The position numbers and the translations under genes are program-made. Positions 11,920 to 34,034 of a stretch of DNA of 35,193 nucleotides are shown one piece after another. Under the pieces are notes generated by a model, which did not search any database, was not told the DNA's origin, and was given only the letters and a program-made list of their open reading frames with translations. The stretch is from Candidatus Margulisiibacteriota bacterium (GTDB lineage: Bacteria > Margulisbacteria > Riflemargulisbacteria > GWF2-35-9 > DYQY01), in contig JAQWCF010000007.1 in NCBI GenBank assembly GCA_028706105.1, positions 1 through 35,193 of the forward strand, written 5' to 3'. How positions within the stretch are numbered: the first letter of the stretch is position 1; the number at the start of each line of letters is the position of its first letter.

Positions 11920-12246
11920 ATGGCAGAAGTAGGATTAAGTAAACCAGTAAAATTAAAGGCTGATCTAGCAGCATTTTGTGGAGCAAAAGAGCTTCCAAGA
12001 ACTGCAATCACACAGAAACTATGGGACTACATCAAAGCAAACAAACTTCAAGCAAAGACAGAAAATGGTAAAGCAGAAGGCGCTGGAAAGTATATCGTTG
12101 CAGATGCAAAACTATTAAAGCTTTTCAACAACACAAACGTAAAAAGCAAATCATCAGGCAAAGTAACTAATTTTACAGGTCTAAAGGCTGGTCAAACAAT
12201 CAGCATGCTTCAACTAGCTTCAGTAGTTGGCGCAAACATAGAATAA
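11920..12246 (+). CDS. SWIB/MDM2-domain protein
   Basis: This is a single-domain protein of 108 residues. It matches the SWIB fold: GLSKPVKLKADLAAFCG, then ELPRTAITQKLWDYIKANKLQ (the conserved R-x-E/A-I-x-x-x-LW-x-YIK core), then KYIVADAKLLKLF. SWIB domains are typical of eukaryotic chromatin remodellers and of chlamydiae, where one is fused to topoisomerase I. Stand-alone copies occur in scattered bacteria. The gene forms its own unit with promoter, strong Shine-Dalgarno and terminator, suggesting substantial independent expression. A DNA-associated role is possible but is inferred only from the family. Confidence 0.92.
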   Translation: MAEVGLSKPVKLKADLAAFCGAKELPRTAITQKLWDYIKANKLQAKTENGKAEGAGKYIVADAKLLKLFNNTNVKSKSSGKVTNFTGLKAGQTISMLQLASVVGANIE

Positions 12247-29482: not shown

Positions 29483-31219
29483 ATGCAAAAGAGAATTAAT
29501 TTCTTTAAAGATTATCTGATAGAAAAATACGGAGAAGCACTATACCGCATACCCCTTGATTTAAATACAAGCTGTCCTAATCGTGATGAAAAGGGCAAAG
29601 GTGGCTGCAGTTTTTGTTCGGAACACGGTGCGCGCTCAATGCAGACAATGCACTCTACTTCCCTAGCAGAGCAAGTTACTGATTCCTTGAAATTTGCTAA
29701 AAAAAGATATGGAGCAAAACAGTTTATGCTGTACATCCAAGCCTTCAGCGCCAACTTTCAACCTGAAAATATTGCTATCTATGACAAACTATTAACTGAC
29801 AAATTTAAAGCCATTAGTTTTGGTACAAGGCCAGATTGTCTAAACAAATCCGCCTATTCTTATCTACAACAACTCAATAAAAAAACTGATGTTTGGGTAG
29901 AATTAGGAGTTCAAACAGTTCATGACAAAACACTCAAGCTTATCAACAGAGGACACAACTTTAATTGCAGTAAGAACGCTATCAAAAAACTAAACAAAAT
30001 AGGCGTCAATGTTGCTGCCCACGTTATTATCGGACTACCTGGAGAATCTATGAGCAAGATGATTCAAACAGCTAAAACACTTTCGAAGCTACCGATTAAA
30101 GCTATAAAAATCCACAACTTACATGTTCTAAAAAACACTAAACTAGCTGAAGATTACAAAATAAAGCCATTCCCTACCCTGAATGAATATGAATATGTTG
30201 ATGTTTTAGTTGCGTTTCTAAAAAACCTTCGACCAGACATTTACATAATAAGAATGACAACTGAATCACTGGAAGGAACAGTTATTGCCCCTAAATGGAA
30301 AATGAATAAAAGTCATTTCAGAGAATATGTCCTGAGAAAAATGGCGTTTGAAGATGCTTATCAAGGAGATATTTTTTCTAAAAAAAATAAACCTGAATTA
30401 TTAACTGAGAAAAGCACTTTGGACGGTTCTATTACTTTTTGGAGCGAAGATTTTAAAGAACATTACCATGATAAGGCAGGCGCCATGCTAGAAGCCAAAA
30501 GTAAATTTCTAAACCAAGCTCTGCTGGATAAAAAAGATAATATTAAAATATTAGACATCTGCTTTGGGCTTGGTTACAACAGCTTGGTCAGCATGGAATA
30601 TGCACTAAAAAACAAAAAGAAGATAGAAATAACAGCCTTGGAAATAGACAAACGAGTTGTAAGAAATGCATCAAAAGTTCTAAATTACGGCACAAGCTTT
30701 AACTGGAAAACTTGCCTCAAAAAACTTTCCATAAAAGGCAAATACTCCAAAAATAATGTTAGCTTATCAGTGTTATGGGGTGACGCAAGACATCAAATAA
30801 CAAAATTAGAAAACAACTATTTTGATGTCGTTTATTTAGATGCATTTTCTTCACAACACAATAGCGAACTCTGGACCTTAGATTTTTTTAAAAAAATAAA
30901 AAAAGTAATAAAAAAAGATGGCGTGCTTCTAACTTACTCATCAGCAATACCCGTTAGACATGCTCTCAAGTTAGCTGGTTTCTTTGTAGGAGAAACACCT
31001 CCAGTTGCAAGAGAAAGAGGAAACACTATCGCCTCCTTAGATAAAACAAAAATATCTACACCCATACCAGCAACAGATTTAGCGTTCTTTAATACAACCA
31101 GAGGAGTTGTTTATCGAGACCCTTTTAATATTTGGCCCAACAAAGAAATTCTAAGAAAAAGAGAAATCTCCATCAAAGAGCTAAAAGCAAAATTAATAGA
31201 CTCTAATGAAAAAAGTTGA
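29483..31219 (+). CDS. Fusion of YtqA/MnmL-type radical SAM enzyme and MnmC/MnmD-type tRNA methyltransferase
   Basis: Residues 1 to about 305 are a TIGR01212-type radical SAM domain, with NTSCPNRDEKGKGGCSFC (Cys31, 42, 45, the family's CX10CX2C form), FGTRPDCL, WVELGVQTVHD, and AHVIIGLPGES. As I recall, B. subtilis YtqA (MnmL) of this family converts cmnm5U34 to nm5U34 in tRNA. Residues about 313-545 match the methyltransferase half of MnmC (DUF752/MnmD): SEDFKEHYHDKAGAMLEAK (about 321-339), SAM motif ILDICFGLGYNSL (356-368), WGDARHQI, LDAFSSQHNSELWT (452-465), and the late ARERGNTIAS. That domain methylates nm5U to mnm5U. The two domains are in one frame without a gap. The usual bacterial solution has them as separate genes or uses MnmC with an FAD domain. 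Confidence 0.88.
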   Translation: MQKRINFFKDYLIEKYGEALYRIPLDLNTSCPNRDEKGKGGCSFCSEHGARSMQTMHSTSLAEQVTDSLKFAKKRYGAKQFMLYIQAFSANFQPENIAIYDKLLTDKFKAISFGTRPDCLNKSAYSYLQQLNKKTDVWVELGVQTVHDKTLKLINRGHNFNCSKNAIKKLNKIGVNVAAHVIIGLPGESMSKMIQTAKTLSKLPIKAIKIHNLHVLKNTKLAEDYKIKPFPTLNEYEYVDVLVAFLKNLRPDIYIIRMTTESLEGTVIAPKWKMNKSHFREYVLRKMAFEDAYQGDIFSKKNKPELLTEKSTLDGSITFWSEDFKEHYHDKAGAMLEAKSKFLNQALLDKKDNIKILDICFGLGYNSLVSMEYALKNKKKIEITALEIDKRVVRNASKVLNYGTSFNWKTCLKKLSIKGKYSKNNVSLSVLWGDARHQITKLENNYFDVVYLDAFSSQHNSELWTLDFFKKIKKVIKKDGVLLTYSSAIPVRHALKLAGFFVGETPPVARERGNTIASLDKTKISTPIPATDLAFFNTTRGVVYRDPFNIWPNKEILRKREISIKELKAKLIDSNEKS

Positions 31220-31233
31220 TTGCCTAGAAATTG

Positions 31234-31482
31234 TTATAAAAATTTCTTAAATGTTGAGACTAATTCATCAATTGTTTCCTGTTTAACCGAGGGGTCAATA
31301 CAATTCATAATATTACCTTCTAAAATAAGACCAGCGGCTCTACGTAATCCTTTTTCTGAGGCAGCAACTTGTGTTAGTATTGCCGAACATTTTTGCTCAC
31401 CCTTCTCTACCATGGAAATAATTCCATCTATCTGACCTTTAACAATTTTTAATTGATGGGTTACATCTTCTTTTCTAGTCAT
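31234..31482 (-). CDS. CstR-like persulfide-sensing repressor (CsoR/FrmR family)
   Basis: The 82-residue all-helical regulator of the CsoR family has Cys32 (EQKCSAILTQVAAS) and Cys61 (EGNIMNC). These positions match the reactive pair of S. aureus CstR (31 and 60). The His of copper-sensing CsoR, four residues before the second Cys, is Asn57 here, arguing against copper and for persulfide sensing. The ATG at 31482 has AAGGA just upstream, so the longer frame from 31533 is rejected. It is divergent from a sulfur-transfer polyprotein, with an operator-like palindrome between them, consistent with repression relieved by reactive sulfur. It is convergent with the preceding fusion gene, 14 bases away. 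Confidence 0.87.
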   Translation of the reverse strand: MTRKEDVTHQLKIVKGQIDGIISMVEKGEQKCSAILTQVAASEKGLRRAAGLILEGNIMNCIDPSVKQETIDELVSTFKKFL

Positions 31483-31501
31483 TTTATTCCTTGTGCCAAC
31501 A

Positions 31502-31511
31502 CCCCTAGGGG
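31502..31511. promoter_or_regulatory. CsoR/CstR-type operator
   Basis: A perfect palindrome CCCCTAGGGG sits within CACCCCTAGGGGGTATA (31500-31516). CsoR-family sites are of this GC-tract type with flanking AT. It lies 20 bases upstream of the repressor ATG and about 70 upstream of the polyprotein gene, between both start sites. Confidence 0.72.
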
Positions 31512-31541
31512 GTATATACTTTAAGTTAATCATAACATAAA

Positions 31542-31580: not shown

Positions 31581-34034
31581 ATGAAAGTTCTAATAGTTGG
31601 AGGAGTCGCAGGAGGAGCCAGTACGGCTGCTAGGTTAAGAAGAAATGATGAAAACGCAGAGATTATAGTTTTCGAAAAAGGCAAGGAGGTCTCTTATGCG
31701 AATTGCGGAATACCCTACTACATTGGTGATGTCATCAAAGACAGATCACTGCTGGAACTTTTAACTCCTGAGGACTTTAAAAAAATGCTCAATGTTGATG
31801 TTAGAAACTATTCAGAAGTTATCGAAATAGACAGAAAGAATAAAACCGTAACTGTCATGGATCATCTAAATAACAAAAAGTATCAAGAAAGCTATGATAA
31901 ATTAGTTCTCTCTCCAGGTGGGAATCCGATAAAACCGCCTCTTCCAGGCATTGGCAATGAAAAAATATTTACCATTAGAAATCTTGCTGATATGGATAAA
32001 ATAAAGACATTTATTAACACTCATAACCCTAAAAAAGCAGTTGTTATTGGTGCTGGGTTTATTGGCTTAGAAATAGCTGAAAACCTCAATGAGTTAGGAA
32101 TAAAAGTATCCATTGTGGAGCTTGCCGACCAAGTAATGAACGTAATTGATTATGAAATGGCGACTGTAATTCATCAGCATTTACATGCAAAAAACATTGG
32201 TCTTTACTTAAAAGACGGTGTGAAAGAGTTTAAAGAAAATGAAGACAACAAACTAGAAGTTGTCTTAAACTCAAACAGAACAATCATGGCAGATATTGTT
32301 ATGCTTTCTATCGGGATTAAGCCTGACACAACATTAGCAAAACAAGCTGGAATTACTTTGGGAGCACTGGGAGGCATTCTAACTAATTCAAAAATGCAAA
32401 CCTCAGACAAAGATATTTATGCGTTAGGTGATGCTACAGAGATAAAAGATTGTGTTTTAGAAAAAATGAACCTTATCCCCTTAGCCAACTCAGCAAATAA
32501 ACAAGGACGCATTGTTGCAGATAACCTTTGTGGTATAGACAGAGAGTACATAAGCACAACAGGAGCTGCTATTGCAAAAATATTTGATATGGTGGTGGGA
32601 ACAGTTGGAAGTAACGAAAAGAATCTTATAAAGAATAATATAAACTATTCTAAGGTATATTTACAACCGTCCTCACATGCTGGTTATTATCCGAATGCTT
32701 TTCCGTTAATGATGAAATTAATTTATAGTAGAACTGATTTTAGAGTGCTGGGAGCACAGCTAATTGGTGCTCAAGGCATTGATAAAAGAATTGACGTCAT
32801 TGCCACTCTCTTGCAAAGCAAAGGAACTATCTATGACCTAGCTAGATTAGAACTTTCCTATGCTCCACCTTTTAACTCCGCAAAAGACCCGGTTAACATT
32901 GCGGCAATGATAGCCATTAACCAAGTAGAAGGGAAAAACGACGTTATCTTCTGGAACGAAGTTAATAAATATAAACAAGCTGGTGCTCTTTTCTTAGACG
33001 TAAGAGATGAAATGTCCTACGATTTAGACCACATCGATACTGCCATAAATATTCCACTAACAAGCCTTAGAGAAAAGTTAGAAGATCTTCCCAAAGATAA
33101 AGACATTATTGTCTATTGTAATCAAGGAAAAACAGCTTATTTTGCTCTTAATATTCTTAATCAAAATGGTTTTACTAAAGTGAAAAACCTTTCAGGAGGA
33201 ATAAAGCTCTTTAAATTCACAACCTTTAAACAGGAAAACATTGGTATCTTCGATGATGATTATATTGATAAAAAAGATGATGTTCAAAAAGTAATCGCAC
33301 CAGCAGGAAAAATCATTAAAGTTGATGCTTGTGGCATGCAATGTCCTGGTCCAATTATGAGGTTAGCTAAAAGTATTGAGTTGGCTGAAATTGGAGACAC
33401 TATCCTTATCGAGTCTACGGATCAAGGATTTCAACAAGATGTTGGTGTTTGGGCAGATAAAACAAATAACGAACTAATCTCACTAGAATCTATTGGTGGG
33501 AAAATAACTGCGCAAGTAAAAAAAGGCAAACAACCAGAAGCTAAACAACTAAAAGGCGAAATCCCGCATGACAAAACATTAGTAGTCTTCAGCGGAGATT
33601 TAGATAAAGCAATTGCAGCCTTTATTATTGCAAATGGTGGAGCTGCCATGGGAAGAAAAGTGACCATGTTTTTTACTTTTTGGGGACTTAATATCCTTAG
33701 AAAAGAAGAAAAGGTAACAGTAAAAAAAGACATCCTGGGTAAAATGTTTGGCTTTATGATGCCAAAGGGAAGCAAAAAACTAGGACTATCTAAAATGAAC
33801 ATGGCTGGCATGGGACCCATGATGATCAAAATGTTAATGAAACAAAAAAATGTTACTTCCCTAGAAGGCATGATAAAAGATGCTATGGATAATGGCGTTA
33901 AAATAATTGCGTGCCAGATGTCTATGGATTTGATGGGTTTCAAACAAGAGGAACTTCTTGAGGGAGTGGAAATTGGTGGAGTAGCAACTTATCTAGGCGC
34001 AGCAGAAAGTGCCGACAATAATTTGTTTATTTAG
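31581..34034 (+). CDS. CoA-disulfide reductase-rhodanese-TusA-DsrE sulfur-transfer polyprotein
   Basis: The 817-residue protein joins four sulfur-handling modules. Residues 1 to about 450 are a flavin-disulfide reductase of the CoADR/NoxE type: FAD motif GGVAGGASTAARLRR, redox Cys42 in SYANCGIPYY, NAD-binding VVIGAGFIGLEIAENL and DIYALGDATE. Residues about 455-555 are a rhodanese with active Cys513 (YCNQGKTAY). Residues about 578-650 are a TusA domain with CPGP at 588-591. The rest is a DsrE_2-type domain with conserved Cys778 in ACQMSMDLMG and a Met-rich loop (about 735-755). The protein probably moves persulfide sulfur from CoA or low-molecular thiols. The divergent CstR-like gene and operator indicate induction by reactive sulfur. 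Confidence 0.92.
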   Translation: MKVLIVGGVAGGASTAARLRRNDENAEIIVFEKGKEVSYANCGIPYYIGDVIKDRSLLELLTPEDFKKMLNVDVRNYSEVIEIDRKNKTVTVMDHLNNKKYQESYDKLVLSPGGNPIKPPLPGIGNEKIFTIRNLADMDKIKTFINTHNPKKAVVIGAGFIGLEIAENLNELGIKVSIVELADQVMNVIDYEMATVIHQHLHAKNIGLYLKDGVKEFKENEDNKLEVVLNSNRTIMADIVMLSIGIKPDTTLAKQAGITLGALGGILTNSKMQTSDKDIYALGDATEIKDCVLEKMNLIPLANSANKQGRIVADNLCGIDREYISTTGAAIAKIFDMVVGTVGSNEKNLIKNNINYSKVYLQPSSHAGYYPNAFPLMMKLIYSRTDFRVLGAQLIGAQGIDKRIDVIATLLQSKGTIYDLARLELSYAPPFNSAKDPVNIAAMIAINQVEGKNDVIFWNEVNKYKQAGALFLDVRDEMSYDLDHIDTAINIPLTSLREKLEDLPKDKDIIVYCNQGKTAYFALNILNQNGFTKVKNLSGGIKLFKFTTFKQENIGIFDDDYIDKKDDVQKVIAPAGKIIKVDACGMQCPGPIMRLAKSIELAEIGDTILIESTDQGFQQDVGVWADKTNNELISLESIGGKITAQVKKGKQPEAKQLKGEIPHDKTLVVFSGDLDKAIAAFIIANGGAAMGRKVTMFFTFWGLNILRKEEKVTVKKDILGKMFGFMMPKGSKKLGLSKMNMAGMGPMMIKMLMKQKNVTSLEGMIKDAMDNGVKIIACQMSMDLMGFKQEELLEGVEIGGVATYLGAAESADNNLFI

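Follow-up and report, generated by a model that had tools for sequence, protein, structure and literature searches.

Gene organization and domain layout of the locus

The window, that is, the whole 35,193-nucleotide stretch of DNA that was analysed, from a Candidatus Margulisiibacteriota bacterium, carries a gene in which a radical SAM domain of the MnmL/YtqA family is joined to a methyltransferase domain of the MnmC2/DUF752 family (Table 1). The preliminary description of this DNA had read the gene as one frame of 578 codons with a TIGR01212-type and an MnmC-M/MnmD-type domain, and this was borne out by the uninterrupted open reading frame, which has an ATG start and zero internal stops, and by the Pfam and NCBIfam searches. 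The methyltransferase family was also as proposed, while the start of this domain, earlier placed at about residue 313, was corrected to about residue 311, and a conserved tail was found to follow it.

Judged from the translations only, the neighbourhood includes a small gene for a CsoR-like repressor on the opposite strand (31234–31533), adjoining the gene of an 817-aa protein (31581–34034) that resembles a CoA-disulfide reductase carrying rhodanese, TusA-like and DsrE-like segments. Elsewhere in the window, a 108-aa protein resembling a SWIB-domain protein is encoded at 11920–12246.

Table 1. Features of the MnmL-MnmC2 fusion gene, with positions in the window.
Feature	Position	Strand	Basis or remark
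MnmL-MnmC2 fusion gene, stop codon included	29483..31219	+	ATG start, 578 aa
Radical SAM MnmL/YtqA (TIGR01212) domain, residues 5-299, including Elp3-like Radical_SAM_C (206-287)	29495..30379	+	TIGR01212, PF04055, PF16199 and Elp3 fold matches
Cysteines C31, C42, C45 (C-x10-C-x2-C), predicted to bind the cluster	29573..29617	+	Kept in 33/33 covering fusion rows and in standalone members
Inter-domain linker, residues ~300-310	30380..30412	+	Boundary from domain matches; pLDDT ~60-72, lower model confidence
MnmC2/DUF752 SAM-dependent methyltransferase domain, residues ~311-522	30413..31048	+	PF05430, NF033855, 3vyw and E. coli MnmC (sequence, fold)
SAM-binding loop FGLGYN, residues 361-366	30563..30580	+	F361, G362, G364, N366 invariant in 34 rows
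Methyltransferase motif LDAFSSQHNSELW, residues 452-464	30836..30874	+	E. coli MnmC alignment; 34-row invariance
C-terminal tail, residues 527-578, with conserved YRDP (544-547) and I556/L557	31061..31216	+	34-row fusion alignment

Family membership and predicted fold of the two halves

In the Pfam search of the 578-aa protein, Radical_SAM (PF04055, residues 40–199) and Radical_SAM_C (PF16199) both scored above their gathering scores, and Methyltransf_30/DUF752 (PF05430, residues 419–518) reached 98.4 bits against a gathering score of 22. The NCBIfam model TIGR01212 matched with 266.7 bits, above its equivalog cut-off of 180, and all 34 fusions that were aligned match the same model at E ≤ 1e-20. 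The MnmC2 model NF033855 matched residues 321–515 at 114.1 bits, below its cut-off of 136, and this equivalog_domain cut-off was missed by the fusions of all six genomes tested, the window's genome included. On these profile scores, the C-terminal half is to be classed as a DUF752 member and not as an NF033855 MnmC2 equivalog, which leaves the prediction that it works like MnmC2 unaffected. Neither the FAD domain of MnmC1 (TIGR03197; Pfam and NCBIfam) nor the MnmM domain (PF06962; Pfam) was detected in the fusion protein.

Among proteins of solved structure, the nearest in sequence to the C-terminal half was the Aquifex MnmC2 (3vyw, 1.8e-30), and to the N-terminal half an archaeal Elp3 (6e-12); the identity of the C-terminal half to E. 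coli MnmC2 is about 22%. The preliminary description had considered that the C-terminal half might belong to a methyltransferase family other than MnmC/DUF752, and the best match turned out to be MnmC2/DUF752. It had also called for structure prediction of both domains, and an AlphaFold2 model built with 11 sequences (pTM 0.80, mean pLDDT 82) gave fold matches to 3vyw and to E. coli and Yersinia MnmC for the C-terminal half, and to Elp3 for the N-terminal half. The model supports the two folds that the sequence matches indicate.

Conserved residues and the C-terminal tail

Residue conservation was read from an alignment of 34 fusions, of which 33 cover the N-terminal cysteines. Cys31, Cys42 and Cys45, named beforehand for the radical SAM domain, are present in all 33 of these sequences, and the standalone TIGR01212 members share the radical SAM cysteines with a spacing one residue longer than that of the fusion. 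In the methyltransferase half, D358, F361, G362, G364, N366, E387, S456, L463 and W464 are invariant among the 34 fusions, as are D453 and F455, which both lie within LDAFSSQ and, on alignment, correspond to LDGF in E. coli MnmC. Downstream of the methyltransferase homology, residues 527–565 form a conserved tail with the pattern ..RG.xYRDP..NKEILR.R, in which D546 and I556 are present in 34 of 34 fusions. A similar tail was observed in two standalone relatives (L035 and L036), and it falls outside the aligned part of the Aquifex MnmC2; the confidence of the model is low at residues 543–555, inside this tail.

Gene content of fusion genomes

In the window's genome (99.74% complete), the fusion gene is the sole TIGR01212 match over the cut-off and the sole MnmC2 match, with one copy of MnmG, no match to MnmM (PF06962), and no over-cut-off match to MnmC1 (TIGR03197), for which weak partial matches to the FAD-binding start were obtained. 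A complete separate set of these enzymes, which the preliminary description had thought might leave the fusion with no role, was not found in this genome, there being no second MnmL or MnmC2, no MnmM and no over-cut-off MnmC oxidase. The same holds more widely, since the fusion is the sole TIGR01212 and the sole MnmC2 match in six fusion genomes including the window's, MnmM (PF06962) is absent from all six of those searched, and none of 25 fusion or split-gene genomes has an MnmC1 (TIGR03197) match over the cut-off. In Anoxybacillus, a member of the Bacilli, the TIGR01212 gene overlaps a gene of an MnmM-family methylase by four bases, which is the same pairing as in the fusion with a different methylase.

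These results bear on whether the C-terminal half has diverged from MnmC2 so as to methylate another amine or another site in the tRNA. The NF033855 score of 114 against a cut-off of 136, the low identity to E. coli MnmC2 and the extra conserved YRDP tail would suit such a divergence, but the Aquifex MnmC2 is the best match of this half in both sequence and fold, the Asp-x-Phe motif and the SAM loop are invariant in the 34 fusions, and the window's genome has no other MnmC2, MnmM or over-cut-off MnmC, so we regard this reading as very improbable.

Distribution of the fusion

A profile built from six fusions was searched against phylum-level genome samples. In the phylum of the window (Margulisbacteria), the fusion was detected in three of 74 sampled genomes; a genus relative has the same architecture at 76% identity, another member of the same order has it at 49%, and of these relatives one is a Candidatus Termititenax sp. 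and the other a Margulisbacteria genome. In the Verrucomicrobiota/Kiritimatiellae sample, taken from the phylum to which a Kiritimatiellae relative belongs, 96 of 388 genomes matched the profile, and about 74 of the 388 carry both halves in a single frame, a count that includes a few frames cut by contig ends and one genome (G366) recognised only from its retrieved locus. Among the 96 matched genomes, five have separate genes, 14 have the radical SAM half only and two have the methyltransferase only at the threshold used. The MnmL-like and MnmC2-like genes of the five split cases (G358, G091, G099, G262 and G169; loci L098/L099, L102/L103, L104/L105, L106/L107 and L108/L109) lie far apart or on different contigs. 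A further candidate for a split-gene genome, G273, was rejected, as both pieces run off contig ends, and it is probably a fusion broken by them. In the sample of Desulfobacterota, the phylum of a Desulfobulbus relative, 266 of 395 genomes matched, with only two matches spanning both halves, and the radical SAM half is mostly standalone there. The survey of other genomes that had been proposed at the outset thus finds the fusion recurring, the tested fusion genomes lacking alternatives, and five Verrucomicrobiota with split genes.

The possibility that the fusion is an artefact of assembly or gene calling, or a decaying gene, has to be weighed because the window is a contig from a draft genome of 147 contigs. 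However, a relative has the same architecture at 76% identity, the three phylum-level samples together contain about 79 genomes with it, and the frame has no stops and keeps its catalytic residues. Since the single ORF is conserved in dozens of other genomes, the fusion is not a chance or assembly join, and we give this explanation almost no credence.

No relative of the fusion was found among the viral contigs searched, and the phages and plasmids searched gave single-domain matches only, with zero fusions. Some unannotated "Bacteriophage sp." faecal records (e.g., MT837636.1 and MT838844.1) carry TIGR01212 matches, which are probably bacterial DNA within virome assemblies.

Phylogenetic relationships

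In the tree of the radical SAM domain, all the fused sequences form one group with a support of 100, while the standalone proteins from Desulfobacterota, Anoxybacillus, Salmonella, Thiothrix, Prevotella and two Margulisbacteria fall outside it. The methyltransferase tree shows the same two main fused groups. Four of the five split Verrucomicrobiota genes nest among the fused sequences in the N-terminal tree, and the same four lie outside both fused groups in the C-terminal tree; the five split-gene genomes are either fissions or relics from before the fusion. The Margulisbacteria sequences are placed among those of Verrucomicrobiota, which suggests lateral transfer into Margulisbacteria, a reading that fits the trees and that we do not press, given that the relevant branch supports are moderate (81–92) and the genomes are drafts.

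The Salmonella TIGR01212 protein (L095), other gammaproteobacterial members and the standalone Margulisbacteria proteins L044 and L045 were also observed to group together outside the fused clade with a moderate support of 84. Gammaproteobacteria can have MnmC as well, and the family name MnmL/YtqA may over-annotate the whole of TIGR01212.

Proposed reaction of the fusion protein

It is known that MnmEG makes cmnm5U34 with glycine and that Elp3 acts on the wobble uridine. We propose, at a probability of roughly 0.78, that the fusion is a single-chain enzyme which converts cmnm5(s2)U to nm5(s2)U and then to mnm5(s2)U, downstream of MnmE/MnmG. Both activities, the order of the steps and the radical chemistry are inferred from homology and gene content. 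The two-step function had already been put forward in the preliminary description, and homology, the sole copies and the presence of MnmG lend it good support as a prediction.

In this scheme, MnmEG would install the carboxymethylaminomethyl group on U34 with glycine as the donor, and the fusion would act afterwards. The MnmL half would hold a [4Fe-4S] cluster by C31, C42 and C45, split SAM to a 5′-deoxyadenosyl radical, and take off the carboxymethyl group to give nm5(s2)U, the likely route being abstraction of a hydrogen beside the nitrogen, followed by oxidative formation of an imine and its hydrolysis. The MnmC2 half would methylate the exposed amine with a second SAM to give mnm5(s2)U, so that SAM would be used twice, without flavin, for the job of bifunctional MnmC.

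The sequence and fold matches count for the two-step reading, as they point to two wobble-uridine enzymes, MnmC2 and Elp3, and so do the profile scores above the Pfam and TIGR01212 thresholds, the invariant motif residues, the gene content of the fusion genomes and the gene overlap in Anoxybacillus. Of the corresponding steps in other bacteria, MnmC1 oxidises cmnm5U to nm5U via an imine and MnmC2 methylates next (PMC3648344), B. subtilis MnmM has been shown experimentally to methylate nm5s2U (PMC9976899), and a 2025 review cites MnmL for the step preceding methylation (PMC12548931). Against the reading count the NF033855 scores, which fell short of the cut-off in each of the six fusion genomes tested, and the chance that TIGR01212 may not be functionally uniform, the Salmonella member lying outside the fused clade. 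A 2020 paper reported that the MnmC-like activity of B. subtilis does not need SAM (PMC7408541), which fits poorly with radical SAM catalysis.

A different division of labour would have the MnmC2 half alone in the mnm5U pathway, acting on nm5U made directly from ammonium by MnmEG, and the radical SAM half catalysing another wobble-uridine reaction. Two papers indicate that MnmEG can produce nm5U without MnmC1 (PMC3648344; PMC3936742), the Salmonella TIGR01212 protein stands apart from the fused clade, and enterobacteria also have MnmC, so a single family function is not required. However, genetic work in B. subtilis and S. mutans reportedly assigns the YtqA subgroup to the step before methylation, for which MnmL is also cited in the 2025 review (PMC12548931), and the fused radical SAM domain retains the family residues and is partnered by the methylase that would act immediately afterwards; we consider this alternative unlikely.

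Comparison with known systems and significance

Bifunctional MnmC of E. coli and Yersinia (3ps9, 3sgl) likewise uses one chain for both steps and the same MnmC2 family, the shared function of the fusion being predicted from its domains, but it carries the FAD oxidoreductase MnmC1 after MnmC2, whereas the fusion has the radical SAM MnmL before MnmC2. The MnmL (YtqA) and MnmM (YtqB) pair of Bacilli combines the same radical SAM family with a second-step methylase, but as two proteins with an MnmM from PF06962, where the fusion uses MnmC2/DUF752. The standalone MnmC2/DUF752 of Aquifex aeolicus (3vyw), the closest solved relative of the C-terminal half, has the same SAM loop and Asp-x-Phe and, unlike the fusion, no fused radical SAM domain. 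Elp3, the nearest solved fold to the N-terminal half, makes a carboxymethyl group and includes an acetyltransferase domain, whereas the fusion lacks such a domain and its partner is a methyltransferase.

Jaroch et al. (2024) reportedly assigned the MnmL step, with B. subtilis and S. mutans genetics placing the YtqA subgroup there, and their abstract is said to mention "the occurrence of fusion proteins". The assignment of the MnmL step is not new, and the fusion class may already have been described; outside that work, our literature search found no other description of an MnmL-MnmC2 fusion. NCBIfam names TIGR01212 "tRNA modification radical SAM protein MnmL/YtqA", so the Rosetta-stone argument of the preliminary description, by which the fusion would assign TIGR01212 proteins to this pathway, comes late; it supports the fused subclade and does not extend to the whole of TIGR01212, the Salmonella member being outside. 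The surprise is modest because the step had been assigned and fusions had probably been noted before. We consider less likely than not the fuller picture of a widespread, previously undescribed, flavin-free single-chain mnm5(s2)U34 enzyme that would complete the modification by passing tRNA between two SAM-using sites. In that picture the fused MnmL clade would have its centre in Verrucomicrobiota, would have reached Margulisbacteria and Desulfobacterota by transfer, and would differ in function from other TIGR01212 proteins.

The main value of the fusion is that, as a predicted single-chain enzyme, it would do the work of MnmC without flavin, with one gene serving two successive wobble-uridine steps; it also ties MnmL to MnmC2 instead of MnmM. 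Replacement of MnmC by this one protein in an E. coli mutant would be a direct test of the MnmL reaction and its chemistry, and the fusion may provide a route to mnm5(s2)U for Verrucomicrobiota, and for some uncultured bacteria, in which MnmM is absent and no MnmC oxidase can be recognised.
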